Positions 10,815-45,000 of a stretch of 64,000 bases of DNA are shown here, piece by piece; positions within the stretch are counted from its first letter, which is position 1, and each line of letters opens with the position of its first letter. Position numbers and translations under genes: made by a program. This stretch comes from Cladocopium goreaui (taxonomy: Eukaryota > Sar > Dinophyceae > Suessiales > Symbiodiniaceae): assembly GCA_947184155.2 (NCBI GenBank), contig CAMXCT020003779.1:1004165-1068164 (forward strand), in the 5' to 3' direction. A model generated the notes under the pieces. That model ran no database searches. It was not told the DNA's origin and saw nothing but the letters and a program-made list of their open reading frames with translations.

Positions 10815-10904
10815 AAGGCGGTGGCGGAAGTTTCAAAAATAGGAAACCTATAGGAGAGATTGGTTGTTGTGAATCAGGGATGGCAGAGCGAAGCCACTGA
10901 GAGC

Positions 10905-11075
10905 AGCGCTTTTTCGAAACTCCACATCTCAGCCTCCAAAAGTGGTCCGAACCCCTGGTGTTTTGCACATTTTGACTTCGAAATGTGCTTCGCGCCACAA
11001 CGGCGTGCACTTTTTCGAAACTCGACCTCTGAGCCTCCAAAAGTGGTCCGAACCCCTCTAGGTTGTCTTTTCCCC
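10905..11075. repeat. 94-bp dispersed tandem repeat, locus 1
   Basis: Nearly two units of a repeat containing CCTCCAAAAGTGGTCCGA, then ATTTTGACTTCGAAATG, then GCTTCGCGCCACAACGGCG. The same unit is tandemly arrayed at 38.2-38.55 kb. Inside it, CGCC-ACAAC-GGCG is a short stem-loop, extended outward by GTGC and GCAC. It lies just upstream (minus sense) of the 9.9-10.8 kb exons. Confidence 0.9.
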
Positions 11076-11089
11076 TGGGGTGAAAAATC

Positions 11090-11718
11090 TTAAGGGTTAG
11101 GGTGTGGGTTAAGGGGTTCGGGAGATCCATCTCTCCACCGCAAGGCTGCCGGCCGCCAGATCATTCACCTGCAGCGTTGCGCATGTTGAAGCGGTGACCA
11201 TGTCATATCCTAACGCAGCAAGTTGTTGCCTTTTAATCTGGTGTGTTTTTTTTTGCGATTACCATCCTAGCCCGCCAGCACTTCATGAATGAAGGCACTA
11301 GTGTCTTTGAGCACAGCATGGAAATGGTGTCCTGGTCATCTTATCAATTCAAAAACATCCGGTGAAAGAATTTGCCATATCCAGGGTAATAGCTGATTAT
11401 CACTGGCACCAAAATTAAAGCATTGTAGATATTGCACCACCGCAAGAACCTGGTTTGGGATTTGACGAGTTACGTTGTACTGGTTCAAACACAAAAATGT
11501 GGCTTCTCCAAACATAAATGCAACCCACAAATTCCAACACTACTCGCTATAAAATGCTATCCAAAATTGCCAAAGGGTTTGCATCGTGGCAGATTTTTTG
11601 CCCCATAATTGGCTTTAATCCAGATAACTCGTCTTCAAAGTGTGAACAATTCAGAGTGTTTCCAAATTGCCGGTCTTGTCGGTGCATTTTTTTCCCGGCC
11701 AGCTCAAGCAGGTAGCTC
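11090..11718. other. Intergenic spacer, nothing recognised
   Basis: This lies downstream of the putative methyltransferase stop. A T-rich tract occurs at 11240-11255. No convincing exon, repeat or terminal inverted repeat was found. Confidence 0.4.
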
Positions 11719-14700
11719 TCAGGCGACTTCGTTTTCGCCTTGCAAGGCCAACAACTCCTCTGGCGTCAAAGGATCACTCGAATCCTTCTGGCCCTTAACT
11801 TCCTCGTGAAAGTGCTCGCACAGCAAGTCACTGAGCGACTGCTGGTACAGCGGATGGGAACTTTGGGACAGGCAGCGAATGGCGTGCATGTCGATGACGT
11901 TCTGCAAGAAATTCATGTGGGACTTGTTCTTGCAAATTCCGAGGTACTGCAAGTTGGAACGCATGGCAGCCTTAGCCAAGGCTCCGCTGCCTGCCGTGGC
12001 ATCAATGATGCACTTTGCACCGGTGAGGCCGATGATGGCTTCCCAACAGCTCTCAGTCCTTGGAAATTTCGATGTTCAGAGGGTGTTCCCATCCCCTTCT
12101 AGGAGCTTAAGTTCAAATGAGGATTGGCACAGCGGTTTGATAGAAAAAGAAAATTGGACGAGCAATAAGCATACAGTACATAGGTGAATGATGGTGAATG
12201 CTACTGACCTTTGGCCTATCAGCTGTACCCGTTGTAAAAGCACAGCTGAGGCCAGAACTTTGCTTCCTGCCAGAAGAGTGGAACACCAGCACGGCTCCAC
12301 GCAGCTGGCTTGGCCCCGCTGTTGTTCTTGCCCAAGATTTGCTCCTTTTCGGCTTCCAACATGCGCGGCAAAGATGTCAGCACAGGCAGGTCAACGCCAA
12401 CAAAGCCAGTGTCATAGGTGCTAATCTCATCGCCTCCACTCTTGTCCACAAATTTGTCCTGTTGACAAAAAGTGTTTTTTAAACAGCCAATTTTTTTCTG
12501 CGCATCAAAATATTGTGCAAACCGACTAACTTGAGGGAACCCGTGTGACATATGCAAGCATGGTTGGATGATCTGGCAGCTTTAGCCAGCAGTCCTCGCG
12601 TGGCTTTGTTGACAGCCGCACCCTCGCAACGTTGGACTTCAGGTAGCCAATCTCTTTGGTCACAGAACCTCCGAAAACTCGACGGCCAACCCGAGAAGCT
12701 CCCTTGTAGCTAATCCAAAGCTCCGTGTTGGTGGAGGCGTTCTGCAAAACTTTGAGCTCTTCATCTAGGAACTTCCGGTTGGCCAGTGAGCGGCCATCCC
12801 AGACAAGCACGAAGTCGAACGGCTTGATCGCATTGCTCTGGATGAATTTAAGCAAGTTCTTGGCATCGCCTTTGTCAGTGAGACTTCCAATGGCGCTCCA
12901 AGGCGTCAATTGCTTCTCTTCAAGCAACTCTGTGGACAACACCCACAAACGATGCGACTCGTTCAACTCCCCAGCGAAAGATTTCACTTCCTCTGCCACG
13001 GGCTTGTTCCACAGGGCGTTCAGATCTCCTTCTGTGCGCCCGAAAGCCAAGTTGACGACTTTCTTGCGCAAAGCCTGCGCCTGGCGCCAAATCTCATCTC
13101 TTTCCTTTTGCCGCCGCTCACCTGCCACTTGACAAAACGGAAGCAAAACAAAATCACCTTGCGTATTGTTTTTGAACACTCGAGCCCCTAATTTTCCTAA
13201 TGCAGCTGTCTCAGTGTCTTGATGTGTCTTGGATGATGGTGATGTCTAGTCATTCGTTTTCTTCTGCAGCCATGAGCGTTGTGTGGCAAGGTCTGTGTCA
13301 GGGTCGCTAGACATCCTGGCGAGTGTGCGAACTGTCATCTTGGGCGCTCCAGTCTCAGAAACTTGCACGATCTCTGAAACTTTGCCAAGCTCTGCCAGTG
13401 CTGCCGTCCACTCCTGGTGAAGGTCCAAGTCTTTGAACGAACTCTCTCCGTCATACAAAATCTCCGTCACACCCGGTTTCCTGCGCAGGAAGCAAAAGAA
13501 AATGGTGACGTGAGAATTAGAAACCAAGAATTCATAAGGCTGAATTCACCAGGTTTCTTCTCGAGCAGCAGTTTGGTTCAGCTGAATAAAGAGCTGTCTC
13601 GACAAAACATATCTACTTGAGTACATCTGCACGTAATCTAGATGTTGATGCTGATGGTCGAATCCTGTCGAATCGAAAAAGCTATTTAAAATGGTAAGAT
13701 GATGATAATCCGCTAGCAAGGCAGTGGACAAATAGATTGTATATCAACTTTAGCCGGGACACCTGGTGTGGGACAATGGATATCGATACGAACCCTATTT
13801 GTATTTGGAAAAATGCATATGGTGTCTAAACTGGGAATTTCCGGCCCGCAAAAATTAACCTAGCGGGATTAGTTCAGTCAGCATGTTTTAGGCGAGCTTC
13901 CAGACTATGGAGCACCTGCCCATGCATGCAAATTCCAATTCTGATTTTCAGGTTTGCTGCATCAAATGCGACATGACCTATGCTGGAACCGTATCACAAA
14001 AACCCTTACATGAGCTGACTGTCGCCAGAAAAGCCAAGTAGCTTCGACATTTTGATGAGCGACTCATCGTACTCGTTCAAATACAAAGCCAAGGCCAAGC
14101 CGTACCAACGTTTGCTGGCTCCGGCAAGAAGTGGACCATGATCTTCCTCTGCATCAACTGGGTACAGAGAATGGAAGAGAAGAGGTCTCCGAATGGCTTG
14201 GAGGGCTGCTAGCAAATCCTTGGAAGACTCTACCTGCAACGTTTCCACGACGTGGATCATGTGCTCAAGAAGGAGGTATTTCGACAAGGTCACATGGAAC
14301 CAGCCCCCTGCATCTTTGCCTCCATCCAAGTTCTTCGAGGTGAAGAATGCTGGCTGGGCTTGCTCACGCTTCAATGCCACATAAGCCGCATGAAGCACCC
14401 ACAAAAGGGCATCTTCGATCACCTGGCAGCCCATGCAAAAACTCAAAACCTATAATTTGGGTTCGGTTAAGTTGGGACTTGGGAACAAAATTCGCTATCA
14501 ATCCGTGTGAGTCAGTCACCCCCGGCTTTTGAAAAAGCGATGCCTCTGCAGGCAGTGATGCAGCAATTTGCGACAGACGCACCAACTTCACGTAGCCAGA
14601 ATTGAACACAGCAACTCCGAACTCCTTGTCGATCATTTTCAAGCCTTCCAAGCATTCCGCCGAAAAGCGGCGCATGGCGACAATTCCATTCACCAAAGCC

Positions 14701-15946
14701 TTGCTAGCCTGCGCACCTCGAAAGGAAATGTCCCGTGCCTTGAGAAACTTTTCTTGCTCAGCTGGCTTTTTGCTGGAGAAGGTGCTGAGCAACTGGTTCA
14801 CCTTTGCTGCCCAATGGCTCCAAGTGTCAGTCAACTCACTGGCTGTCTGGTAATCCTCTGAGGCCATGAGGCTGCGTTGCAGCAAATACGTCTTGTCGCC
14901 ACCAGAAACACATGTCAAAGTCACACTCCGCCCACATTGCCAAAGCAACTGGACCGAATCGTTGTCCGAAGCTTGGATGGCGCGGCACATCTTCACCTAG
15001 GTTGCAATTCAAAGCTATAAACGGTAGATGATGAAGTGGTAACCCTGGCGTGTTGCGTCTTTAGACGTCCCATTTCTTCCCTGGTGATGATTTCATGCGA
15101 GTCACCCACCAAGCGGCAACCATGGCGTGTCCAGCGATCACAAAAAGAGTCTTTGGAAAGCTGTTCTGGTCAGGAACGCTACCTTCTGGTAGAAAGCAAT
15201 GGACTGCAAAGGGGAAAAGAATGCGCTGCTTCTGATCGAAATCTTGCGGCACAAAGCGCTTCTCACAAGTGAGAATCTGGTCAAAGCTAGGTGAGTCCAC
15301 GTCAAGGAAACTGTTGTCAAGCGGGTTCAACCAGGTGACGACACCACCTGCTTCATAGAGACCATTCTGCAAGCACGTGGCAGCGTTGCTGGGCCGCCAC
15401 ATCTCTTCTTTGTACCTTAGAAAACAGATACATTCCAATAAGGGACACCCAACCGCGCCCAAATTTTACAAAAACAAACAGACAGCACCCTTTGGCCAGT
15501 CAGGATGCCCGTCTTGCTGCGAAGCCAGGCCAACATCCAAGGGCTCATGCTCATGCAACGGGGTCGCAGCAGACTTTCCGAGGTTCAATTTAAACAGAAG
15601 CTCTGGCAGCTTTGCTTTTACCTGGTCAAGACGCTGACGACAAAAAGAAAGGCTTTCATGTAACGCGTCGAAGACGCTATATAACCGGATAGGGCGGCCA
15701 AGTTGCAAAGGGAATGACTTTACGCAACATACCGAAGCCGTCAGTGGTCTTGGCATCCTCCTCGGACGGCCACTCAACCACACCCACGCTCCCTGATGCT
15801 GCACTCGCAGCGGGCGGCACCAAAGGCTGGACAGGTGTAGGTTGCACATCAGTCTTTGCAGCCTCACCAGTCTTTGCCTTCTTTGCTGCCGCAGCTTGAG
15901 TCTCAGTCTGACTTGCCGTTCTTTTCTCTTTCGGCGGCATGGACAC
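11719..15946 (-). CDS. Multi-exon gene ending in a SAM-dependent methyltransferase motif
   Basis: Likely start near 15946/15940 (M-S-M-P-P-K-E-K-R-T), followed by a Lys/Ala-rich, nuclear-localisation-like N-terminus. Exons resolved by frame and phase: 15415-15106, 14996-14520, 14422-14010, 13480 to about 13250, 13121-12541, 12458-12229 and 12058-11719 (stop). Two 5' exons lie at about 15946-15733 and 15665-15490. The C-terminal exons read G-V-P-L-F-W-Q-E-A-K-F-W, then I-I-D-A-T-A-G-S-G-A-L-A-K-A-A-M and Y-L-G-I-C. D-x-T-x-G-S-G with a following small helix and a second strand is the AdoMet-binding motif I of class-I methyltransferases. Its position near the C-terminus recalls beta-class DNA N-methyltransferases, where this motif follows the catalytic part. 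I see no clear D/N-P-P-Y catalytic motif, so substrate and activity are unproven. The block 13121-12541 (contains D-F-V-L-V-W-D-G-R-S) matches no family I can name. Confidence 0.6.
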
Positions 15947-16110
15947 GCCAGCCAGACCCAGTTAAACCAACAAGTTGCGACGTCTAGGAGACTTTGGGAG
16001 AGCCAAAACCTATGGAAAGTCAAATTATCTTCGATAGAAGTACCTGTGAGAAGGAAAAGGCAACCTTTGAAGCTTGTATGCAAGCAGTCTGGTGGAAAAC
16101 ATTACCATTT

Positions 16111-19100
16111 TCAAGTAGGTGGTACAAACTTGCACCATGACACATGAAGGAGCAACCGACCTGCTTTCTGTTTTTGCTGCACTACCCCTGCAGCTAGTCT
16201 TTCTTGGGACAAGGTTTCAAAGCTGGATGCTCTACCCCTGTCCGAACACACTCCCGAATCTGCTTCGCAGACAGAAAAATGTCTTTCGCTCGTTTCAAAA
16301 CAAGCTGTGGCTGACCCTCTCCGATCTTCCACATCGAGTTAGGCCTCAGACGAGCCGTGACGACGCTTTAACGTACTTAGGAGACCCTTAAAATAAGAGT
16401 TTCAGCAAATGGACCCAATGAAGGGTAGATTTGTTGCGCCGAAGGGTCAAATCCAGCCCCCTTTCAATCATGACAAGTCACAAAGTGACCAATCTCTCCA
16501 TCATCTGCACACTGGAGGGATGCTTCTGCTGGAAGTCAGAAGTGATGGAGAAAAAGCGTTTGGTCCACAGGGCAGGTCTATGTACCTCAGCAGCGCCATT
16601 CCTGGCGAAGACCTCGGCCTCAATGAGCGGCTTGCCCACTGCCACTGCACAAAAGAAGGCGTTGTGAAACCAAGGCCTCAGTTCATATGTGATGGAAGAT
16701 GCATGACAGCCTAGCCCAACAAACGCGAAGCGTGTATAGAAGAGGAAAAGACAGAGTATGGAATACACCTGACGCATATAGATACAGAAGTGACGAAGCA
16801 ATCGGAAGATAGATCGACTTGTTCAGAGAAAACTCACTGATAACATAAAACAAACGCTCACCTGAATAAGCTGATTAGAGGAAAGAAGGGCTCAATCGCT
16901 GAAGCAATGGCAGGACAGATGTACAAAAGAAAAAGATTGGACAAGCACGATGAAGAGAGAGAGAGAGAGAGCGGGGGGGGAGAGAGAAAGAGCGAGAGAC
17001 ACACACACACATATATATAATTATATATATATGTGTGTGTGTCCATCTGCTTTTATGCAAATACGTGTATATATATATGTATATATGTGTGTGTGTTTCC
17101 ACACTAATTAGCTTTTTTGATGTATACATATACATATAATCCAACGAGCCATCCACAAGAGGCAAACTGCAATAGACTCCAAGCGCAAACTACGAATAGA
17201 AGATCTGGTGTGTCACTATATGCGGGCAGGCAAGAAGCAGCACGCTAAAGTGGCAGGTTATATGAATGAGGTCGGTATTGAAAGAAACAAATGCACAAAT
17301 ATGGATGCGAGATACCTCAGGTCGTCGAGCGACGGTTAGAACACTAACTTCCGACCATTGAAAACTCCAGCAGCAGCCAATAAGTCAAGAGAGCAAGCAG
17401 AGGGAAAAACAGAAAGAGGAGCAGTCAGATGGACATCACGGTATAAAGTATAAAGATATAGGATGTAAGATGGCATCAAGATACAAGCCACACTGGAGTT
17501 AGGACAGGCCCTGCCCGACCAAGAGATGATTCATTACTGTTGGAATCTTTGGTCGCGCGCACAAAAATACTGGGGCTAGGACGCCACAGCTTTGGAATCT
17601 GGGACACATCGCAAGGTGCGCCAAGAAGGTATCACCACCAGGTGTGCCCTGCGCACAGATTTGATCAGGTCCACCATGGATATGCCGACCGCCAGCCGGA
17701 TAAAAGTCGTAGAACCATGCTGGGCGCTGTCTCTCAGAGGAGTAGGACACAAATCCAAGACCTGCAAAGAGATCTTGTTGACGTAGAAAAAAGCCTCTGA
17801 AGGCACTTGTCTAGACAGCAGCTGGCAGGTTCGCCGGTTGGCTTGGTAACAGCTCTTCTCTGGATGCAACGACCTTTGCTTTTTCTCCTCGTCCTTTTTC
17901 TCTTTTCGTTTGGCCGCAGAAGCATAAACAGATTCCAAGCTACACTGTGCAGGGTTCTGTTCCCGGGCTCTGTGCTGCGGTAGAGCGTCCCGGGATAAAC
18001 CCAACACAGTCAGCGATTTAGCTGAGACCTGTTTGGAAATGTCACGCACCAGCTTGTCAGTAGCTTGTGCTTGGCAACGCAGAATGCTGACTTCTGTTCC
18101 CTCCTTTTTGGCACGGGCTTTCCCTTTGTCGTTCCGTGTTTTGTACAGCCTGAAGCGGCTGCCAAATGCAGAACGCCAAATGTCAGCCAACTCTAGGCTC
18201 AAGTCAGTAGCTCGCAGCTGCGGCACCTCATCGCCTTCGAAGAAAGACCTATGGCAAAAGTCTTTTTCTTCCTCCGGCCCATCCATGGCGATGTCAAGAA
18301 GCATGCTGACGGTCACGCCGCTATCTTCCAGAGGCCCCAGATGGCAGGCCTGGATTTTGGCAAGCTTTGACAAAGCACGCTCAGCACCAGTGCTTGTGTC
18401 CAGGAAGCCCAAGTAGTATTCTACAAGTGTGGAAAGGGATTGGAACTTGCCAGACTCTGTCACTTTCACCGCAAAATCGGCTGCAAGGGTGCTTTGCCAA
18501 GCTTTTCGGTTGTCCACCTCCTCCCCGCCGCGCAAAGAGTCCTTATAGTCTTCGTGGAGCTGGTGGGCAGCTGCCCACCACTCCCTGCAAGCCGCAGCCC
18601 AATCAGGATGACGAAGGCCAGAACGCAAAAGCCGTTCCAAACGTGCATTGGTAAGCATCTCAAAATTTTTCCAGGCAGCCGCATCCTTCTTTCCATGATG
18701 GAACGACACCAAGTCGAAGACAGCAAAATCCAAAGCAAAGCCTCTGATTTCTGAATCGATTTCAGCCATGGTTGCGTCCACCACTGCGTGCATACTGTAC
18801 ACACACTTCTTGATGTCATTCTTCCTGGTTTCCGGCCACAGCTCATGCACGTGTGGACCATAATGGATTGGAGGACATTCCATGGCTTGCTCACAGATCA
18901 AGCGGGTCACTGTCTGCACACCTTCTGCCTCATCGAAGATGTGGTTTTGAAAGAAAAGCACTTTCAGCCTCCCAACATCGGGCCAGAACACAAGTTAACA
19001 AGTTGACAATTTCAACCCTTTCTTGAAAACTGTCCGGGGCTGAGCTGGCCTGGCCTGTGCAACATTTCTGCTTTCTGCCGATGCGTCTTGGCAGGGTCAT

Positions 19101-22061
19101 GATCTGCTGTGTCGAACTGCCGGAGAAAGCGGAGCATCTCTGAAGAATAGTCGGACGCAATCCCAACAGTGAGCAGGAGGTCAGGGGTCAACCTCTGCAG
19201 CATCTGCTCACACTTCGCCCGGAATGCACGACTTTGGCGGCTGTCCTGGGATTGGATGGCCAAAAGCAAGGCAATCGGAACAATCATCGCGGCAAAGCGC
19301 CTCAAAGGCGCATCCTGGGAGTTCCATCGAACCTGAGAGAAGTTCAAATGCTTCAAGCGACTGTCAAAGGCTTGCGCCAACCCTCGCAGGCTTGTACCTG
19401 AGCCCAGAAGGTGTCAGGTCAGAGAATTGCATGCTTGCTACCTTCCATGCTCATACCTATACAACACATTTAACACTGCCATATTGACAATGATAACCGC
19501 CTTAGTCGAGGCACATCGTTTTGAATTGCCCAGAATTTGCTTCTCCACTCCACAGAATTCATGACTTCCGGTACAAGCCCTCCTGACCCAAAGAGAAGAT
19601 CGCGGACTTCAGCCCACGTCTCTTGTGCCTGACAAGGCCTTTCTGCACACAACCTCCGGGCAAGCATGGAACCATGATTCCCCACCTGTCAGGTTAGGGT
19701 TGATGTTAGATTTTATGTCAGCTGTCCCACCGCCTCCTTCTCCTCGTCCTCCTCCGCCTCCGCCGGACCTCAACTGAAAGCGCTTGATCCCAGCCTTCCC
19801 CCGCCGGACCCGAACAGCAAGCGCAGGATCAGAGTGCTCCCCGCCGGACCTCAACTGCAAGCGCTACATCGCAGTGTTCCCCGCCGGAACCCAACAGCAA
19901 GCTCAGGATCAGAGTGTTCCCCGCCGGACCTCAACTGCAAGCGCTAGATCACAGTGTTCCCCGCCGGACCCGAACAGCAAGCTCAGGATCAGAGTGTTCC
20001 CCGCCGGACCTCAACTGCAAGCGCTAGATCGCAGTAAGCAAGCTCAGGATCAGAGTGTTCCCCTCCGGACTTCAGCTGCAAGCGCTAGAGCGCAGTGTTA
20101 CCCACCGGACCCGAACAGCAACCTCTGGATCAAAATGCTCACCGATAAAACAATGCTGTGAGTCTTGCAATGGGACTTGTACCTGAGGGTTTGTACTAGA
20201 GCACGGAACTCCTCCCCTTCCCTCGACTTCTCTCTTGCCCCCTTCTTGTCCACTTCCCCAACTGAAGAGAATGTCAAAGAGAGAATGCCAGATAGAATGT
20301 CAGAATAGATGTCAGATAGAATGCCAGATAAAATGCCACAATAGATGCCAGATAGAATGCCAAAAAAGATGCCAGAATAGATGCCAGATAGAATGTCAGA
20401 AAGAATGGCAGATAGAATGCGAGGCAAAATGCCAAAATATATGTCAAATATATGTGAGGATATATGGCTTGAAATGCCATGGTGGGGATCACTCGAAGTA
20501 AATAGTAATCAATATGGTTCTCCCTGTAAAAAAATGTGCGGTCACACAACCAACTCTTTGAAGAACTGATCAGAAAGAAAAACCAAGCACATCAGGTGGC
20601 CCATGCCTCGCCTGATCGCATGGCAGTGATCACGGTGTACCAGCGTCAAATTCGGGAATGTCTCGGTCAAGATTCTTCCCGCCTTCTGCGCAGCTGGGCA
20701 TCCATCAGCTGTGAAGTGGCGAAATATCTCCTTCAAGTGGGTGTACACCCAAGGGTCCGCATCACCAAACAATGGGGTAGCTAGCAGCTGCAAGCCGCGG
20801 TCTATGCTATCAGCCATGCGGGCCGCATAGTCATCCTCATGGGCAGCAATTGAAGACTCACCAATCCGAAGGACCTGAACGAGTCCGGCGCCGCAGTTGC
20901 TGTGAAACAGAATCGCTCGGTGATCCTTTTTGTCGTCCACAACGATGGTCATGGTGGTGGCCTGGAGTAAGCAAGCGACCTTCCGGCGACGGACTTGCTC
21001 CCGCAAAACTTTCACAATCTGAGCAACCGCTCGCCTTTTCACTTCCTGCGGCTCGGCTCTCTTCTGACTAATGAAAGCTTCTGTGAAAGTGGTGGCTTCC
21101 ATGCTCTTAAAAGACTGGGAGGACTTCACATACCTCCATACCCGCAAATATTCTTCCAGCTGTGGCACTGCACCGCCAAAGCCGTCACCTTACAGTTCGA
21201 ATATGACAAAAGAACTTGTTGCCACTTGCCACCAGGGATTCTTGGAGCATTTTTTCAATTGCATGTTTCTCTGATTTCGTAAACACTTGGGGTGCTCTAA
21301 AGTAGGAAAAAGGCTTTTATTTTCCATGTCACGTTCAATGGCTGAAGCAGGTGCAGAGCCAATGTGCGCTTGGCCAGGATGGAGGAAACAATGCAAAGCT
21401 GTCCGGTGCACACTGGAGAGGCTATGTTTCCTGAATGTTTGCAAAAAATAAAGATTTCAGCGTGCGGTCTGAAATTTCTACAAACTCTGTCCTTATGGTG
21501 CTCGCTTGCATGCTGCTCATGCTGCAGACTTCGTAGCGGCCCCACTTGGTGTTCAGCCGCCGCTTCAGCTTCTCAGACTGACTGGAGGCACTGCTGGGGC
21601 TACATGAATCGGAAGGGTGCGCCACCAAGCGTGCCAGCATAGATGCGCAAACATCACAGCCAATACCCCAAGAAAGACCAAGCCGCGCGGGCTTCTCATT
21701 GAGCCAAATCATCTGCTTGCTACTGCACAGACGCTATGCTTTGGCGCCAGGACTGCCGATGCACAAGGTATTTGCAACGAGGGCATTTCGAAGCAAAGTG
21801 CTTCGGGTCAGGATGCAACTTCCGGTGCTCCATGTGCCCTTGGGGTTGGTCTCGCCTAAGTAACATGGCGAGCGGCCTGTTCCTTTGCGGCTGGGACCGC
21901 TGAGTTTTGCTCTGCTTTTTCACACCTTGGTGGCTGCCTTTCGCCTGCCATGGTTGTTTCACAAATCGGCAGCTTCCTTCGGCAGGCCCATTGGCCTTGT
22001 GTCTCTTGGTGGTCCCATTTCCGCTGCCGTACAGTTCGTCTAGGCCTCTACCCCTTTTCAT
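16111..22061 (-). CDS. Zinc-finger plus RNase-H-fold (hAT-like) transposase-like protein, multi-exon
   Basis: The start is probably Met at 22061 (M-K-R-G-R-G-L-D-E-L-Y-G), followed by a basic, nuclear-localisation-like stretch and C-P-R-C. The exon ending at 21492 holds W-G-I-G-C-D-V-C-A. It joins exon 21430-21333 to give T-I-R-K-H-S-L-S-S-V-H-R, so C-x2-C with H-x5-H makes a BED/C2H2-like finger. Exon 21188-20612 carries I-V-V-D-D-K-K-D (candidate first catalytic Asp) and F-T-A-D-G-C-P-A-A, then R-D-H-C-H-A-I-R, resembling the D-G-A/N-M and H-C-x-A-H region of hAT transposases. Exon 19653 to about 19500 continues; exons 19397-19055 and 18968-17576 hold the C-terminal helical part, with A-C-H-L-G-P-L-E-D and a Lys/Glu-rich tail. 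More exons lie at about 16730-16480 and 16340-16200. The order of parts fits a DNA-transposon transposase. I assign the hAT relation by pattern only; the third acidic residue is not fixed. Confidence 0.55.
16950..17100. repeat. Composite (GA)n(CA)n(TA)n(TG)n microsatellite
   Basis: A run of GA, then G, CA, TA and TG dinucleotides between the 3' exons of the transposase-like gene, probably intronic. The CA and TG halves make it nearly self-complementary. No coding signal is present from about 16810 to 17490. Confidence 0.85.
19654..20611 (-). other. 958-bp GC-AG intron inside the transposase core
   Basis: The donor is AG|GCGAGG and the acceptor is GGAG|G. Joining them keeps phase (2+1) and gives R-D-H-C-H-A-I-R-L-C-A-E-R-P. 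The intron is about ten times longer than its neighbours (61-144 bp) because it carries a copy of the 0.8-kb dispersed element at 19680-20509. Confidence 0.6.
19680..20509 (-). mobile_element. 0.8-kb dispersed element, copy 1
   Basis: On the minus strand it starts ATTACT.TTACTTCGAGTGATCCCCACC (dot is a variable base). An AT-rich segment, a GGCATTCTATCT-type 12-bp array, a unique purine-rich middle and a GC-rich array of 40-bp monomers follow. It ends TAAAATCTAAC...CCTGACAGGTGGGG. Copies 2 (35150-35941) and 3 (54874-55648) share the same order and ends. CCCCACC at one side and GGTGGGG at the other form a 7-bp inverted repeat. The end CTAAC...TGACAG|G looks like a branch point and 3' splice site. 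It lies within an intron, in the sense direction of the host gene. Confidence 0.7.
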
Positions 22062-22311
22062 TATAGTGGATTGATCCGAAACAGTCTGCGCTCGGCACAT
22101 GGAAAAAATATAGAATCTGCGCTCGGACATGGAAACGCAATCCTTCTGTGGGGCCCGGCAAAGCATTTACAACGAAACTTCCCAACAATTTGGAAACAAG
22201 CGCAGTGAGTGTGAATGAAGGAACATCCTGGCATGCCGCTCTGCTTTGGGACCTGTGTGTCTCACCGTCTCTCGCTGAGCCACTTCTAATGGCTGCATCC
22301 AAACAACCTAC

Positions 22312-23921
22312 CTAGCTGTAGATTTCCGACAGCGAACGTTTGACCCGCTGGACACCCGGTACTCTGGCTTGAGCCTTTGGCTTTCTGTTGCGACACGGGT
22401 GCCGGGACGAACCTGTTTTATCTTTGGCCTTGGCTTTCTTCTTGCTACCGCTCCTTCTACGTGCAACTTTTTGTCCAGCACCCTCTGCGAGAATTAAACG
22501 CGCAGCTTTCCATTGAAAGATCAAAGGGCCAGAGCTATGGTCTACAACTGCAGACTGAGCAACTTTCTTGTTTGAAGTCAACGACATGGCTAACATCATA
22601 GCTAATCCAACAGCCCGCAGATGCATGCCATTGCCAGCCATGGCGTGCAAAGCGGACACTCCAACTGCCCGAGAAGAGCACACTTTGGCTGGCAAGCCGA
22701 GGAGCTTCAACTTCTCTGCCGCCGAAAGCAGGCGTCTAGTGCCACTAGAAACCAGCAGAAGCTTGGAACTGGTTGTCAAACAGGGTACAAATCCCCATCC
22801 AACAGGCATGCGGTCATAGGATTGAGACACATCCAGCACGCATGGAAATTGCTTGCCTCGATTGGCAGCTAGCACCATTTCAACCGCGCTACTTTCCCGG
22901 GGTGTCAAGAACCCGCATGCAGAACCAGAACTGTATGCTGAAGGTGGGAGGCCCAATCCCGGTCGAGCCTCATTGTGCTTCTTCACCCATTTTGCTCCAT
23001 ACCGACTTGCAGATCCTGAACGTGTTGCCTGGGATGCTGGGGCGACTGCCCCTGCATCCAAATAATCTGTCAACTGATTTGCCGGCAAGGATTGCCTGAT
23101 TTCGACCATAGTCTCTGCAAAAAACTTGGCAATGACACCTTTTTCAGAGGTGAGTGCCGCATCTCTGCGAACCATTACAAAATAGATCCGGGGACGTCTA
23201 TGAGGCTCCTGCAATGCCACGGAAGGACATAGAGGAAGCACGCAAAGCAAATAGTCATCCAGCAGGCCAAAGCGTTTGAAGCTTGCCAGAAGCTGACGTT
23301 TGTAATTCATAATGCCGCCGACATTCTCCAAGACAATCCAATCAGGTCGAAGGTGACCAGCTGTTTTCAGGACAGCAAAGAAAACCTTTGCTCTAGGGTC
23401 TCTGAAAGCTCGTCGGACTGTCGATTGCCTGCTGTATGGCTGGCATGGAAATCCAGCCACATAGCCGGTGACATTCTGAGGGAGCGAGGACACGGGCCGA
23501 GCCAGGATGTCCTCAAAGATCACGTTAGCTCGACCGTTCTCTTTCAGCCACTTGCGGACAGATGGATTGCTGTCACTGGCAAACCTTGCCAGGGCTGTGC
23601 GGCACAGAAGCTTACACACCAAAGAAATAGTGATATGAATTGGAACACGCTTGTTTCTGAAATGCAGAAAAATACATAGGCTAAGACAAGATACGGCTGT
23701 TCAAAGGGTATCTCGCATGCTTCGGCTGCAAAAGCTGGGGTATCCAAGCCGCTACAGTCTGTGGCTATCTTCTGCGTGAAGGAAGAAGTCAAGTAAGGCG
23801 TCTGGCCTAAGTTGTGTGGAAGCCATCTGGCACTAGATCGCAGAACAGCTGCTCGCAGCAACCTACACCGGCCATCCGGCGGACCGGTCATTGCCAGTTC
23901 CAGTACTAAGCCAGAGATCAT
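22312..23921 (-). CDS. C5-cytosine DNA methyltransferase, split by one intron
   Basis: It transfers a methyl group from S-adenosylmethionine to carbon 5 of cytosine. Exon 1 (from the first Met at 23921, possibly from further upstream, to 23695) ends with motif I: A-T-D-C-S-G-L-D-T-P. Exon 2 (23584-22312) holds motif IV with the catalytic Cys (G-F-P-C-Q-P-Y-S), motif VI (L-E-N-V-G-G), motif VIII (R-R-P-R-I-Y-F-V) and motif X-like A-G-N-G-M. A Lys/Arg-rich tail follows. Removing the 110-bp GT-AG intron (23585-23694) gives F-E-Q-P-F-A-S-D-S-N-P, which lines up residue for residue with F-E-H-V-F-S-C-D-N-D-P of the second methyltransferase in this window. The spliced frame from Met 23921 is 499 aa. 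An in-frame stop and a CAG acceptor lie just upstream of that Met, so it may be an internal exon of a larger gene with the HMG-box kinase. All core motifs are intact. Confidence 0.85.
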
Positions 23922-24364
23922 TGCGCGAGGAAAACTTTTGGAGTTTGCTTCTGTGAATTACCTCGGTGATTTTTGAAAGACAACCAGGTAATTTTTCTGA
24001 TACATTAATCACCCGAATTCATTCCATATCGAAAAGTGAAAAGGTACGAACTTGTTCCAATTTCTGGGCAACATGTACCTCGCAGACTTTTGAAAGATCA
24101 AGAGGTAATCCACTATCACAGAACGGAACCAGGCCCCACGGCACCTCTCGGATGCTCTGGGCCTTTTGTGAGACATCACGCAGGGCAAAAAGAAATGGAT
24201 TACAAGAACCTTGGAATGCAATTGACAACTAGGATTTCTAAACTGCTGACACGAATCAACTTTTCACGCTATTCCCAAAGCATGTCACATCTGGCCACAA
24301 AGAGAATGCTTTCCCAAGCCTTCTCTGAAATCCTGGTGAAACAAAATTACATGTTCTCAAGTAT

Positions 24365-25858
24365 CTACGCAGGCAAGGTGCGGTGTGCTGGCGCAGCTGC
24401 GCAAGCTGAACGAATCCGGTCCTTCCACAACCCTGCCTCTGACAAACGGCAAGAAAGAATTTCCTGGGGAGTCGGCGCCTTCGCCCGGGCCATCGGCAGA
24501 GGCATTGTGCGGACTTTTGTGACCTGCACGTCTTGACACAACATGCACCATTGGCTCACTGAGTCCTTGATGCTACCCAGCTTGCCCAATGGCCTGAAGA
24601 GGTTCTTTCCGACGCATGCCTCGTACAAGGTGGATCCGGCTGAAAAGATGTCAATGGCCGGCGTCAACAGGGAGCGATCAACCTCATTCACATAGAGCTC
24701 TGGGGGCCTGTAGCCCTCGGTCACGTACATGGAATAGTGTGTGACCTTTTTGTCGCGGAAAGATGTGAACTCCATGAGGCCACAGTCTGTCAGCTTCAAC
24801 GAACGTGTCTCTGACAGCCACAGGAGGTTCCCGGGCTTGATGTCCAGGTGACAAATGTGTCTCGAATGCAGCAGTCTCAAGGCACAGGACAGCTGGCATG
24901 CAAGGAGCTCCATCCTTTCATCTTTGAACAAGTCACATGTCTTGAGAATCTTGTCGAGGGATTGGCCCCCGTGTTCCATAGAATACCATGGGCAAGGCTC
25001 TGCTGCAGGGTCAGATGCAAAGACCGAACAGAAGTAGGTGTGATAGCGATCCCCCAATTCGGACACAAGCAGTTTCAACCAATCCGTTTCTCGCAGCATG
25101 TTTGTCTGACCATGGCGGCCACTGAAGAGCTTCAGCACCACAATTTTCCCTGTGCTTTTGCAAAAGGCTTCATAAGCCTTTCCGTAGGAGCCCTCTCCTA
25201 GTTTTTGCTGCAGCCTAAATGCACCCTGCAAAGCGACAGGTACCTGCTGTGAGTACAGGGGAGCCTTAGCCTCGTCAGTTTGACATGGCATCTGTGGAAG
25301 CTGCTTGCAAAACACACCAGCTGTGGACATCGCAATGTGCTGCTGGCGAACTTCCTCAGCACTTCTGTCTCGATAGGAAGCTTTCTTAGCAGCAGTCAAA
25401 CTCTTCCACTGCGCGGAGACTCTCTTCATTTCTCGCGCATGATCATCTTTTGTGCCCTGACCTTTCTTCAACTTGTAATTTTCAGACAAAAAGATTGCAA
25501 ACGGACGCCTTGCTTTGGGGCAAAGTCCGTCTTTAAGGGCGGCTTTCCTGAGGCCTGGCTGAAATCTCACCGCTGGCTTCGGCAGCTTGGTCTTGCAGGT
25601 GAGCCGATGGGTGACAACCATTTCCCACAAACCTCGAAGGGAAATAACCGCAGCTGCTCACCTGCTTCCAAACCTATACTTGCCAAATGTGAACCTGTAC
25701 AGGACAAAACCCTTGAGCCAGCCGCAATGCTGCCCTGGCACATGGACATTTCCGTGGTATGTTCAAAGCACAGATGCAAGCCACACGACATATCACGAGA
25801 TTGCAACTTTGAAGCAAAATTCATTCTCTCCAGCAGGTCACAGTCTTGCTCGGAGGAA
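24365..25858 (-). CDS. HMG-box plus protein-kinase protein
   Basis: A 5' exon (about 25858-25662, donor CAG|GTGAGC) is followed by a long exon ending near 24365. That frame holds an HMG box at about residues 40-98 (K-A-R-R-P-F-A-I-F-L-S-E-N-Y-K ... S-A-Q-W-K-S-L-T-A-A-K-K), a DNA-binding fold. A protein kinase domain begins near residue 140: the glycine loop G-E-G-S-Y-G, Lys in V-V-L-K-L-F, the catalytic loop H-L-D-I-K-P-G-N, the Mg-binding motif changed from D-F-G to D-C-G, P-P-E in place of A-P-E, and D-I-F-S-A-G. The catalytic Asp, Asn and Lys are present, so activity is possible. The end of the kinase domain is missing from this exon and may be encoded in the exon annotated as methyltransferase N-terminus. 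It is first in the minus-strand block. The start codon is uncertain. Confidence 0.7.
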
Positions 25859-35149: not shown

Positions 35150-35941
35150 ATTACTCTACTCCGAGTGATCCCCACCATGGCATTTAACGGCATATATGCA
35201 TACATACGCATACATATTTTTGCCATTTTTCTTACATTTTACCTTTCCATGTTACCTTTACATTTTACCTTTTTACATTTTACCTAACATTCTATCTGAC
35301 ATCTATTCCGACATTATATCAATTATATCGGCCATTCTTTCCGGCATTCTCTCTGGCATCTAATTATTCTGGCATTCTATCTGGCATCTATTCTGGCATT
35401 CTATCTGGCATTCTATCTGACATCTATTCTTTCTCTTCAGTTCGGGAAGGGGGCAAGAGAGAAGTCGAAGGAAGGGGAGGAGTTCCGTGCCTTAGTGCAA
35501 ACCCTCAGCTACAAGTCCCATTGCAAGACTAACAGAGTCAGTTTTATCAGGGAAAACTCTGAGGGGACGACTCTGATCCAGAGGTTGCTGTTCGGGCCAG
35601 TCTTGCAGTTGAGGTCCGGCAGGGAACACTCTGATCCTGAGCTTGCTGTTCGGGTCCGGCGGGGAACACTGCGATCTAGCACTTGCAGTTAAACGTTGAG
35701 GCCTCAGCGGGAACACTCTGATCCTGACCTGGCTGCTCGGCGCGGGGAACACTGCGATCTAGCGCTTGCAGTTGAGGCCCGGTGGGGAACACTCTGATCC
35801 TGAGCTTGCTGTTCGGGTCCGGCGGGGAAAACTGTGATCTAGCGCTTGCAGTTGTGAGGCCCGGCGGAGGCGGAGGAGGAGGAGGAGGAGACAACGGGAC
35901 AGCTGACTTAAAATCTAACAACCCTCACCTGACAGATGGGG
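35150..35941 (+). mobile_element. 0.8-kb dispersed element, copy 2
   Basis: It starts ATTACT.TACTCCGAGTGATCCCC (dot is a variable base). The array of GGCATTCTATCTGACATC, the purine-rich middle (GGGGCAAGAGAGAAGTCGA) and inverted-sense 40-bp monomers (GGTCCGGCGGGGAACACT) follow. It ends TAAAATCTAACAACCCTCAC then CTGACAGATGGGG. It matches copy 1 over most of its length in the opposite window orientation. Its terminal ACAGATGGGG has one change from ACAGGTGGGG. Confidence 0.75.
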
Positions 35942-37403: not shown

Positions 37404-38224
37404 CAGTCTGGCAGCAAACTAGTTTACATGGGCAAACAAACTAAACTGCATACCGTTGATCCAAACACAAAATACTTCAACCTGTATACCCAAGCCCCAG
37501 CCATACAAACAAACGCACACTCAGGTGAGCAAACACTGGAGAAAACATCAGCAAACACAACATCATACACTCATAGAAGAAGAAAGCAGGCATACGTCCA
37601 AAGAAGCGGACACAAAAAAAAACACCAATATCCACCCGTACATCCATACATAAAAATGCCCAAGCATCCATACCCATTTATCCATGTATCCATGCGCACA
37701 CCCACACACGCTTACATCCAGGCATCCGTCCAGGCACGCATACGTACGTACATGCAAATAGATTACAACAACAAATGGCCCTACACATACAAATTCACAG
37801 AGAATTACAAGCTCATACGTGTACCTGCCCACCTGCAACCATAGATTCTGGCATTCCTGCAAGCACGCGTTCCAACTCACAAACGAAAATACACAGAAAT
37901 CAACAAACTAGTCAAACATAAAATTAAGAAACAACCACAGCTGCGCAAAAAATGCGATCTTACGAGCAAACAAAAAATACCATATCCTGTGCGCTCCAGG
38001 AATCTTCAGCGCTAACCCCACCGTTCCACATCAAACCCTGCCGAAATTTCTGCTCGGGGACCTGGCCTCTTCCGCGGAGAGCTGGCAGCTCGCCAGCAGC
38101 CGCAGCCAGCGGCAGCGACCCCCAACCGCCAGCAGCGGCGAATCCCCACCGCCAAATACAACCCAGAAAATGAGGGAAAATCTTTAAACACGCAAAACTA
38201 CAACCCAGCCCTAGTGTTTTTAAC

Positions 38225-38560
38225 ATTTTGACTTCGAAATGTGCTTCGCGCCACAACGGCGTGCACTTTTTCGACATCTCAACTTCCAAAAGTGCTCCGA
38301 CCATGGTGTGTTTTGTACATTTTCACTTCGAAATATGCTTCTCGCCACAACGGCGTGCACTTTTTCGACATCTCAACTTCCAAAAGTGGTCCGACATTGG
38401 TGTGCTTTGTACATTTTGACTTCCAAATGTGCTTCGCGCCACAACGGCGTGCACTTTTTCAACATCGCAACGTCCAAAAGTGGTCCGCTCCTCTAGTGTT
38501 TTGTCCATTTTGACTTGGAAATGTGCTTCGCGCCACAACGGCGTGCAATTTTTCATCTCT
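38225..38560. repeat. 94-bp tandem repeat, locus 2, about 3.5 units
   Basis: The ACTTCGAAATG core starts at 38231, 38325, 38419 and 38513, an exact 94-bp spacing. Each unit carries GCTTCGCGCCACAACGGCG and CCAAAAGTGGTCCG. It is the same family as 10.9-11.1 kb. The short frames on both strands are repeat artefacts. Confidence 0.95.
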
Positions 38561-39950
38561 CATCTGGCCAGCTGGCTCCGCACCCGCCGCTTTAGGGAGC
38601 CTACTTTTCGACCCTCCGGAGCCACAAATCATTGGAAAAACACAGTGAATCGCGACTTTCCTATCTTTTCGCGCATCTACCTCTTCTTTCTTCTAATCTT
38701 TCTCTTCTCTCTGCCTCTTCCCTGCTCTGCGTTTCAACTGTCCATATTGTCGGAAGTTTAGCTTCTAAACTTCCTTCGATTAGCTTAGTGACAGTGTAGG
38801 CATCAAATGCCAGAAAATCGTGAATAAACGCAAGCCCGAAAAATATCCAACATAGCCCAAGTAACATCGAGCGCTGATGATGGCAACCCATCCCGAATGG
38901 CTCGAACAATCCGGAACTTCTCCTACAGGCAGCTGAAATGGTGCTGGCATTTCATCAGAAATGCATTGCTTCCCTATGCTTCCTTCAAGTCATGTGGATT
39001 CGTCCTGACAGCAAGATATCCTCAATATGGATGTGACTAGTTCTTACATCTTTACATCCTATAGTGTGCAGTACACTATTTACATGAAGCCACGAGGCAT
39101 CTGAGATATTGCAAAATCCAGTTGCTGCCAAGCTGCATATCCCAAGTTCACACCATTGTTGATCAGGCCTGGTTCTCTCGTGTGAAGCGTCAGGTGCTTT
39201 CAAACAGGCTATATCAAAGATTTCGTCCACCAAGCATCTCAATTGGTTTTTTTCACAGCTCGGTTATTGTTTGCAGGTCAGCTCAGGATATCTGAAAGAA
39301 CTTAGAAACCCTCCTGCTATTGATCCAGCATTTAAGCAGCTCATCAACCGGATCCACCGTTCATCCATGTTTCATTGAAACTGCCAGCAAGGTACGCGCT
39401 TTCTCCTGCTCCAGGAAAATGGGTGGCTTTTGAGCCTCCCTGAGCCAAGGATCTGGTTCAACGATGGCAAGGCTTGGGTTAAGGCTTGATGACAGATGAT
39501 GCCATGATGACAAGTCATGATGGTGATGGTGATGGTTGCAATGGGCCAATGGGGAAAAATGACAGACTTCCACCCTGCTTGAAGCTATAGCAGGGCTAAG
39601 GCCCTCTGCCTCTCGTCATCAGAGTCCTTCAGAAGTGGGCAGTCAGGACTACCAGTGACTACCGCGTCATCGCTCTAAATTGGTGATCGGTGCGGCCTAC
39701 CGGGTCTACCGGTACAAAAGCTCCACTGAGTAGAAACCCAGTGTTCTGCCATCTCATTGGACTAGTTGAAACGGTATGTGCATTCTGTGTTTCTACGATG
39801 GGTTACAATAATGCCCAATAAACCAGGTGGTATAACCCATTCTAATTATTCACGAACCAACCATCATTTACCAACGATATCCCCATATCTTTGATGGTTC
39901 TAACATGTTATAAGTCCCAAAAATGATGACTCGGTCAAGTTAAATCCAAT
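38560..39950. other. No confident gene
   Basis: Short minus frames at 38909-38661, 39242-38985 and 39573-39361 were considered; none has a clear exon context. A short ATG/GTG repeat lies at 39518-39536. Confidence 0.35.
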
Positions 39951-42014: not shown

Positions 42015-45000
42015 CTACAAACGACGAATTTGGGGGGCTGTAGTAGTCCAAACGCACCCAAATTTCGACCCTGCGGTGGGGTCCGTTGACAAGAACTGGG
42101 CTTCAAACTTGGTGCCGTTCCCCATGTAGTACTTCACAATATCCTTCGGCAAATGCGACCTCAAAGAGTTGTGAGTCAGCATGTTTTTTCTGCAGCCATA
42201 CATGGGCCATTCTCCCCACGTGAGGGGGACAAATTTAATGTGACTTAGGCCACTGGCAGGGTGGCTGCTGTCAAGTACTGCGGGTCATCTGCATGGTCCT
42301 TGAAGGCAATGAAATGAACCTCAGAAAAACTGGATGCCGCAAAGTCTGCACTGAATGACGCTTCTCACATTCTGGTCAGGAATGTCAGTGTCACCACTGC
42401 TTACCCAAATCAAAAACTAACTACCAAGTTTTTGTTGGGATTTTCCTTGCCGCATGACATGAGGGTCACACCAATTGCCGATCTTGGAGGTCAGTTTGCC
42501 AGTCATCTGGCAGGATGCTCCGGTGAGATGAGTAAAAAACAAATGACTATAAGTGTAATCCTGATTCAATCATAATTCATCATAGTTATAACTATAATCA
42601 TAGTTATAGACTTACTATAAGTTTAAATTAATATAATCATAATTCATCATAATTCAATCTTGTCGATGCTAGACGATGCCCCAGGATTTGGATGTGTGGT
42701 TCACAGACTGCATCTAAATATAAAAAAAAATGGGCAACACTACAGAGCTCAGCATTCCTGTGAGCAATCCATCCTACAAACAGCCGAAACAAACCCAGAA
42801 CCCAAACGCTCATTTCCCGCAAGGGCTGCTTTCCAAAGAACCAGACTGGGTTGATCCGGGTTGTGATTCGGCACCGCACTTTTGACAGTCTTCTGCCCGC
42901 GCGAGGTTCACAAGAAGCAGTTTTCGAAAGCAAGTGTCAGGTTCTTCATTCCAAAAGCCCAGCAAGAAATCAGTCAGAGGATGACCACGCCGGAAGAGCG
43001 TAGAATCTCGAGCCGAAGTCAAGACTTGATACAAACCTGAAGGCTTGTCTAGCTTTCGTAGCTTTGGATGCTTTTCTTGCTCTTGTCTAACCTGTCTAAT
43101 GTCCAAGATCTCAATCCATAGGAGAGGTTCGCCATCTTCCATCATGCAACAGTTTTTCAGAATCACAAATCTTCCAAAGATGGGTTTTGGCACCGACACA
43201 GCTGCTTGACCTCGTGTAAAAAATTGAAAGGTTTGGCGCCGTGGAACTGGCAGAATTTCGCCCTCCGAGGCCAGTTGCCAAATATGAAGGGTACGCTTCT
43301 GAGCTTCCAAATTGGGTGCTTCAACAAAGCACAGCACTCCGCATCTGACAGCCACTGAGCATGGAAGAATACTTGGTTCACCAGTGGATGTGATGGGAGA
43401 CTCCACAAAGATCGGGGATACCATGATATCCTTCACTTGGACTCCATCGGCGTCATGGATCATCTTCGCCACATGCAGCACATGGGCCGTATCCAAAGCT
43501 ACCAGGAGGCCCTCACCAACAGACACCCCAAAGGTGATGAGCGTGATGGTGTCACGTGATGGTAGTGGCAAAAGCGGGATCCACTGTGTCAGCTGGGTGC
43601 CTCACCGTTGAAGGTCCACAGGAAAAATAGAACTAGATATAATTATATCAATAACAATATATATATATTATATTGGGAACTTGTATACGATAGTAATATT
43701 GTAGATCATATCGCGCAGAGATCACATGCAGCTCAAGTATTGGTGGTGGGCAACATCTGTGCCTTTTGTGAAGAAACCTTGGGGAGGAAATGATGTTGCT
43801 CGCATTAGCAATTGCCCCTAATGAAATCTTCTTCGGAGGTCGCTGGTTGAGCCATACCCCAGGACTTTCCAAGAAAACGCTGCGTCAACCCAACAAATCG
43901 GGGGCACCAAGTGCAAGCTCAGTGGCACTCCGGTTCGGTGCGCCAAAAATGTATGCTCCGTCCACCTGGGACAAAGTGTGTTCATCAACTATAACTATCC
44001 ATCCCATCCATCCCATCCTGATCCAAAAATGATCCCAACAAGTCTCCAACAACAGAAATTAAACCAATTTCCCACCCAAAAATGGACAAAATATTAACAC
44101 AATCTCCGTGATGGGCTTCCCATCAGCAACCCACCTTCTTCAGCCCACAAGGCCAGAGTGGAAGCGCCTGAAGATCTTGCCTGGACTGGATGCAGTTTCT
44201 CTTCCTCAGAGATGGAGTTGGGATGGCTGGTACAGTCAGGTCCAAAATATCCCCCACTATAAAATCACCAAGAAAAGAGTGGCGACAGGATTTGGAACAT
44301 GGTTAGAACCCTTAGCACGCAGCAATTTTGAAACCATCCCATCCGTGTCCTGACCACCAATGATGGAAGGTCGCGGTATGATGATGCCAAAATCACCAGA
44401 GTTGGTGTCCCAAACCAATAGCCGCGTTGGCTGCTCCAGCACCAGCTTTCCATCGGCAAGGAACATGTCTGTGGAGGAGAGAAGGTCGGCCTCCACCAAA
44501 TTTGGCAGCAGGTCCTGGGCTGAAGGTGTTGGCACTTGCAAACTGCGTAAAACTATTCCAAAAAGGCCAATGATCAATGGGAAGGCACGAGGTACGAGCA
44601 GTGGCAAAGCCACCCCTCTTTTTTTTCCTTTTTAGTGTGGTTTCAGAATGTTTCAGACTCCAAGTCTTGCAATTCCTGGACATACTCCAAATGCAGGTTT
44701 TATTGAAGCTTTGATCATGCCAAAAGCTGCTCGTCAACTCCAAGAATCCCCAGTCCAAGCGCCGTTGAAATCATAAATGTCAACCTCAGCACGAATCTCA
44801 TCACAGCTGGCGGTCACAAACTTTTCCCCCAAAGGAAAGCAGCTGCTCATCCCAGCAACATCCAGCAATCATTGTACAACTCCCTGGCCCTGGGCAAATA
44901 GTAAATGATAGTCCATGAATACAGAATATAATATATACAGTATATATATATATGTGTGTGGTGAATTGTGGTGATATATATATATATAATTATATATATG

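Follow-up and report, generated by a model that had tools for sequence, protein, structure and literature searches.

Four clustered genes of Cladocopium goreaui as the probable core of a family of large DNA transposons carrying a cytosine methyltransferase and an HMG-box kinase

What places a transposase-like gene, a C5-cytosine DNA methyltransferase gene, a gene with a class-I S-adenosylmethionine (AdoMet) motif and an HMG-box kinase gene side by side on one strand of a dinoflagellate genome? The question is raised by a stretch of 64,000 nucleotides from Cladocopium goreaui (C3779:1004165-1068164; the window, by which we mean this whole stretch), whose minus strand from 25657 to 11719 carries the HMG-box kinase, C5 DNA methyltransferase, transposase-like and class-I-motif genes. 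A preliminary description of this DNA had suggested a large DNA transposon equipped with its own DNA-modifying and DNA-binding functions. We conclude that a family of large cut-and-paste DNA transposons very probably has these four genes as its core. Our grounds are that the genes recur together, that copies share sharply defined ends, that 4-bp target-site duplications flank most of the paired-end copies, that shorter copies exist, and that near-identical copies sit in unrelated flanks. The evidence for mobility comes from a group of copies that we call type A, not from the window copy. The earlier suggestion thus holds for the gene set, borne out by type A copies with their ends and duplications; the window copy, around which no ends were detected, may or may not be mobile.

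The same-strand order of the four genes means little by itself, because the bulk of the coding signal in the window lies on the minus strand and unidirectional gene clusters are common in dinoflagellates; about 40% of genes lie in such clusters in Polarella, according to the available part of PMC7245778. An ordinary host gene cluster was our initial reading, and it was overturned by a search of the window's own assembly (1.166 Gb, 6202 contigs). Queried with the window transposase core, this genome yielded seven other places at 30-39% identity with collinear transposase exons, and six of the seven have a same-strand methyltransferase match some 2.8 kb downstream. At the seventh, on C115, the expected methyltransferase site falls within 5 kb of N, and an HMG-kinase lies 12.9 kb downstream.

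The window methyltransferase matched 98 places; apart from the self-match, the top-scoring place is 30% identical over 401 amino acids, and none exceeds 58% even over short stretches. The HMG-kinase of the element described below gave 118 matches. We compared 44 distinct kinase places (E up to 2.7e-20; 45 rows minus one second fragment) with 88 methyltransferase places (the 98 minus 10 second fragments). A methyltransferase place lies within 20 kb on the same strand at 21 of the 44 kinase places, window included, against a chance expectation of 0.0015 per place or about 0.07 in all; the 21 are not all independent, as some contigs may be duplicates of one locus. The kinase is 3.0-18.8 kb downstream of the methyltransferase in 20 of these linked places, and the window alone has it upstream. 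The seven best methyltransferase loci outside the window (L002-L008) are 41-51% identical to the element methyltransferase, and the transposase C terminus stands directly upstream in L003, L005 and L006; the other four are without it within the short flank read. As a separate observation, many methyltransferase open reading frames (ORFs) of 382-430 amino acids have identical scores (C164, C1101, C5755, C797, C502 and others), as if they were near-identical copies, and these may be of the published retrotransposon type.

All four families occur together in one unit on C6055 and C811, in the order transposase, methyltransferase, class-I gene, HMG-kinase. The preliminary description had asked whether the genes recur together in the same order; within this genome they do recur together, but the order in the window is permuted. 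The gene model of C6055 comprises the four families and further unknown genes, all on one strand. In Pfam, its methyltransferase matches PF00145 (E 5.2e-18) and its kinase PF00069 (E 1.3e-28), with an HMG box under the cut-off (E 2.4e-3). The window kinase finds its homologue inside the element at E 1.6e-49, with 31% identity over 402 amino acids. For the class-I gene, five of eight exon queries match C6055 and C811 collinearly and weakly (E 7e-6 to 0.003 each), and the last window exon matches the modelled element protein at E 6e-12. In type A the transposase gene is preceded by a gene X and followed by the C5 DNA methyltransferase gene; then come unknown genes, the class-I-motif gene and finally the HMG-box kinase gene. 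Three diverged types (C811-like, C428-like and C115) share both gene X and a gene Y, which lies downstream of the methyltransferase, at about 35-65% amino-acid identity. Gene X (ERALVAKKGSSTCVLAMRL; L025:2701-5072, with counterparts in the C428 and C115 stretches) lies upstream of the transposase and has no convincing Pfam family. The type A methyltransferase (L026:2436-4061) has GFSCKPFS in place of the usual motif IV, GFPCQPFS, with the catalytic cysteine retained.

The C6055 unit is 28,809 bp long. C811 aligns with it over 21.4 kb at 99.6% identity, and C2205 over 6.8 kb at 99.7% and 11.2 kb at 99.4%; C2205 and C811, which overlap by 10.7 kb at 99.87%, are two contig ends that we treated as one locus. 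A further copy on C5349 spans 29.7 kb and is 93-97% identical to the other full-length copies over long stretches. Among 73 ORFs of the C6055 element (67 + 6, picked by length and complexity), searches with sequence models found no reverse transcriptase, capsid, polymerase, packaging ATPase or integrase domain, and otherwise only weak, unrelated matches. Likewise, no reverse transcriptase, capsid or polymerase domain was found among 113 selected minus-strand ORFs of the window, in agreement with the earlier statement that the unit lacks a reverse transcriptase.

The alignments of C811 and of C2205 with C6055 stop at single bases, and the flanks beyond are unrelated. The type A ends so defined read CTGCCTTGGCAATTC... 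on the left and ...GAAATGCCAACATAG on the right, with boundaries set at CTGCC as the first and CATAG as the last bases. A 300-bp left-end probe matched 23 places: 10 nearly full length, two with the first 97-103 bases only, and 11 short matches; the first 15 bases are identical in 10 of the 12 left ends, and C2107 and C5349 differ slightly. A 301-bp right-end probe matched 15 places, 10 of them covering at least 253 bases. Ten left ends pair with ten right ends over spans of 1.6-29.7 kb, comprising three full-length pairs (C6055, C2205/C811, C5349) and seven shorter ones of 1.6-11.1 kb (C110, C2107, C4438, C4657, C3669, C113, C195) that are known mainly by their ends and span. In 5-kb windows at the right-end positions predicted for full length, the end was found in C5349 and not in C3669, C113, C4657 or C195, which fits shorter copies. 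The two partial left ends (first 97-103 bases, at C4179:198813 and C398:196748), for which no right end was found, are truncated or solo ends.

Identical 4-bp direct repeats flank eight of the ten paired-end copies, and their sequences vary by site: TTAA (C6055), GATA (C2205/C811), TATC (C5349), TTTA (C110), TGAT (C4438), TGTA (C4657), GTTA (C3669) and ATGA (C113). The pairs on C2107 and C195 have no 4-bp duplication. The first three were read from the flanks by eye, as the automated duplication search took repeats of at least 5 bp only. The strong duplications are the five from shorter copies together with TTAA. The C6055 insertion lies inside a tandem repeat, and the empty site, gaataTTAAactccc, is present exactly in four of six neighbouring repeat units, with one or two base changes in the remaining two. 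Both ends share a TTGGCAWTTC core five bases in. Type A thus has the features of a class II DNA transposon, namely sharp common ends, a fixed 4-bp duplication, and shorter derivatives with the same ends. The common ends and target-site duplications that the preliminary description had named as a check are therefore present, the latter in eight of ten pairs, and only the inverted repeat is weak.

We next describe the window genes themselves, which lie in the span given by the preliminary description as four minus-strand units in close succession. Codon usage, evaluated by leaving out one gene at a time, favors the chosen frame in 12 of 12 exons (five genes, including a second methyltransferase discussed below). 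The exon limits are approximate, since the simple gene model fuses the kinase with the methyltransferase and splits the other two genes; its introns are mostly GT-AG, with some GC-AG, and GA-AG in doubtful parts. The genes are multi-exon except for the kinase, which is one long exon (24365..25657, minus strand, start probably at 25621) with an HMG box at about residues 48-107 and a kinase domain at 148-374. In a Pfam scan its identity as a Ser/Thr protein kinase is unambiguous (PF00069, E 5e-28), and the HMG box that the preliminary description had also named matches its model at E 9e-4, under the gathering score.

The C5-cytosine DNA methyltransferase gene (22312..23957, minus strand, at least two exons) is likewise unambiguous in its identity, its ORF at 23700-22312 matching PF00145 at E 5.9e-19. 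The main exon extends from about 23586 to 22312. Motif I (TDCSGLDTP) lies at about 23770-23730 in an upstream exon that ends at about 23696, in frame, joined by a GC-AG intron placed by eye; the automatic gene model has another junction, fused with the kinase. The motifs that are named I, IV, VI and VIII in C5 methyltransferases are all present alongside the PF00145 match.

The transposase-like gene (17749..21733, minus strand; split in two models) is supported by its relatives, the collinear exons and invariant aspartates. Its exons lie at about 21733-21502 (with a Cys-x2-Cys pair), 21188-20544 (the D-D core), 19390-19031, and 18968-17749 (a C-terminal helical part with TGAERALSKL). The finger and D...D-G core of the preliminary description are recognizable as the Cys pair, VVDD and TADG, and D85, D86, D89, D162 and D187 are invariant in an alignment of six cores (the window and five loci, three types). 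The protein has no convincing Pfam or PDB match, and none in Pfam with its exons joined. One of its introns contains arrays of 40-bp and 12-bp tandem repeats (19680..20437); this minisatellite pair occurs again at 35270-35941 in opposite orientation, and a related array at 54923-55561.

The class-I AdoMet-motif gene (11719..15940, minus strand, about nine exons, split in two models) begins with MPPKEKR and holds a single motif-I-like stretch, DATAGSGALAKAA, in its C-terminal part. The motif that was originally described is therefore there; the methyltransferase identity assigned with it is a candidate one. Amino-type DNA methyltransferases carry a motif IV of the form [DNS]PP[YFW]. Because the match to PF01555 reaches E 0.063 only and a motif search found no motif IV in the gene, methyltransferase is an unproven, candidate label here, and the joined exons gave no Pfam match.

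How might such an element work? The transposase-like protein, the sole recombinase candidate seen, would bind the ends and catalyse movement through DDE (RNase H-like) chemistry. The methyltransferase may mark the element's own DNA, thereby either tuning silencing and transposase binding or readying the DNA that has been excised. By bending the ends, the HMG box could bring them into a synaptic complex; the kinase attached to it could regulate this complex or act on host factors. The class-I protein would bind AdoMet, although it has no recognizable amino-methyltransferase motif IV. The C6055 element has an observed/expected CpG ratio of 0.51 and its flanks one of 0.60; in the window, the ratio is 0.67 at 11-26 kb and 0.63 elsewhere. 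For self-methylation of the element these values are weak support at best, and for the window copy they give none.

Several observations weigh against the transposon reading or narrow it. The C2205/C811 copy is a join of two contig ends, and some similar contigs may be assembly duplicates. The GATA and TATC duplications count for little, because the tandem repeats around them are made of the same letters. As for the terminal inverted repeat, it is short, and weak enough for 230 of 2000 shuffles of the 40-base ends to reach its score. At 23 of the 44 kinase places there is no nearby methyltransferase match from the same list of 98. A class-I exon used as genome query found three weak other places, the elements not among them, and the window class-I exons match the element weakly. 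The transposase is assigned to no known superfamily, and fold predictions for two exons both had a predicted local distance difference test (pLDDT) score of 41, too poor for use as evidence. As for the window, its order (kinase, methyltransferase, transposase, class-I gene) differs from that of the element, its proteins are 24-43% identical to those of element A over matched stretches, genes X and Y have no match in it, and no ends, type A or other, were detected at the locus. There, matches to TTGGCAWTTC are no more frequent than by chance, and a search for hAT-style ends around the genes gave none or, at loose settings, few above shuffles.

These last points bear on the alternative that survives best, which is restricted to the window copy and does not conflict with the transposon family: that this locus now belongs to the host, either domesticated or dead, its four genes derived from an ancient insertion, kept for a host function and immobile. 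We consider this about as probable as its contrary. It would account for a single copy (the top other methyltransferase being 30% identical), for the missing ends and rearranged order, and for open frames with many introns, but a young low-copy element would be expected to have open frames just as much. From its sequence, the window copy, whose main exons are open, reads as an old, single-copy, diverged and rearranged family member that may still be capable of movement or may have been domesticated.

It is very unlikely that a cluster of ordinary host genes was multiplied by segmental duplication. Unidirectional clusters are normal in dinoflagellates (PMC7245778, in its available part), the genes have introns, and long homologous stretches link some contigs (C428/C3668). 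Against this, 12 left ends share the same terminus although their flanks differ (the first 15 bases agree in 10 and are slightly changed in two), and 4-bp duplications, shorter copies and a visible empty site accompany them. Segmental duplication is contradicted for type A, and stands only for copies without found ends.

An integrated virus or Polinton-like element is more improbable again. The size of about 29 kb would suit it, and kinase and methyltransferase genes occur in large viruses, but the 73 element ORFs contain none of the capsid, polymerase, packaging ATPase or integrase domains sought, and the multi-exon genes, 4-bp duplications and shorter copies also oppose it. Finally, it is scarcely credible that the methyltransferase is part of a LINE or DIRS retrotransposon as in Symbiodinium, where methyltransferases of that type are abundant (PMC5890265, as far as available), with the other genes its neighbours by chance, since the 113 selected minus-strand window ORFs and the 73 element ORFs yielded no reverse transcriptase, the transposase-methyltransferase-kinase linkage recurs, and the shared ends contradict chance neighbours.

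A family of cut-and-paste DNA transposons remains our preferred reading, and the transposase has a fair chance of defining a new superfamily. For the broader proposal we hold the balance to be even: a new superfamily of very large (about 29 kb), intron-containing dinoflagellate DNA transposons, whose transposase belongs to none of the superfamilies known, whose insertions make 4-bp duplications, and whose C5 DNA methyltransferase, AdoMet-motif protein and HMG-box kinase are conserved cargo that would mark the element's own DNA and control its own transposition complex. Related gene sets would have reached many places in this genome and supplied loci such as that in the window. Searches of the open-access literature, judged by title and abstract opening, gave no report of a dinoflagellate DNA transposon with a methyltransferase and a kinase.

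Other features of the window lie outside the cluster. A second C5 DNA methyltransferase (51106-49871, minus strand) is one long ORF matching PF00145 at E 1.9e-49; it closely resembles bacterial HhaI and shares 24% identity with the first, and no transposase, kinase or class-I gene was found beside it. Among phage records, 1230 match this second methyltransferase and none the first; a search for relatives in viral contigs and prokaryote genomes confirmed nothing. Further coding-like segments without Pfam match at 42248-44520 (minus strand) are perhaps another multi-exon gene. A tandem repeat of about 95-100 bp (frame VHAVVARSTF) is dispersed over the window (10884-11123, 37963-38692) and the C428 and C2205 stretches, and adjoins or sits within several transposon loci. 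The window contains no spliced-leader relic at up to 3 mismatches, and no Rfam match at gathering score or tRNA.

Very large methyltransferase numbers have been described in dinoflagellates, and in Symbiodinium retrotransposon methyltransferases are abundant, most of its methyltransferases being described as lying in retrotransposons (PMC5890265, in the part available). Retrotransposons are the route described there by which dinoflagellate mobile elements capture cytosine methyltransferases, and a DNA transposon would be a second route and a concrete source for part of this large and diverse repertoire. The element makes it testable whether mobile DNA writes methylation on itself. Annotation is affected too, since a multi-exon gene in a dinoflagellate gene array may be the cargo of a transposon.

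Among known systems, piggyBac elements target TTAA only, and piggyBac was rejected here because one alone of the eight different duplications is TTAA. The transposase resembles hAT transposases, by eye, in a zinc-finger-like Cys pair, a D-D core followed by a His motif, and a C-terminal (T/S)xxER(A/N)LxxL; the ER-containing stretch is similar to the hAT dimerization region. Type A is, however, far larger than hAT elements. We do not place it in the hAT superfamily, as there is no match to a Pfam hAT model and the duplications are of 4 bp, not the 5 to 8 bp given for hAT in the accessible part of PMC12730594 (Kojima 2025). The same source, to that extent, describes fungal DNA transposons carrying TET/JBP (hAT7, KDZ, EnSpm, Plavaka and others), which are alike in having captured a DNA-modification enzyme; theirs is a dioxygenase and not a methyltransferase with a kinase, their hAT members make 7-bp duplications, and their hosts are fungi, not dinoflagellates. 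DNA transposons with a methyltransferase in marine viruses, known here by their mention in PMC5890265 (its reference 16), share the combination of DNA transposon and methyltransferase, with a virus as host. Closest in host are the SymbioLINE-Dnmt and SymbioDIRS-Dnmt3 retrotransposons (de Mendoza et al. 2018, PMC5890265), which are likewise dinoflagellate mobile elements of many copies that carry a C5 DNA methyltransferase. These move by reverse transcription, for which no enzyme was found here, whereas type A has a DDE-like transposase, 4-bp duplications, introns, an HMG-box kinase and a class-I-motif gene.

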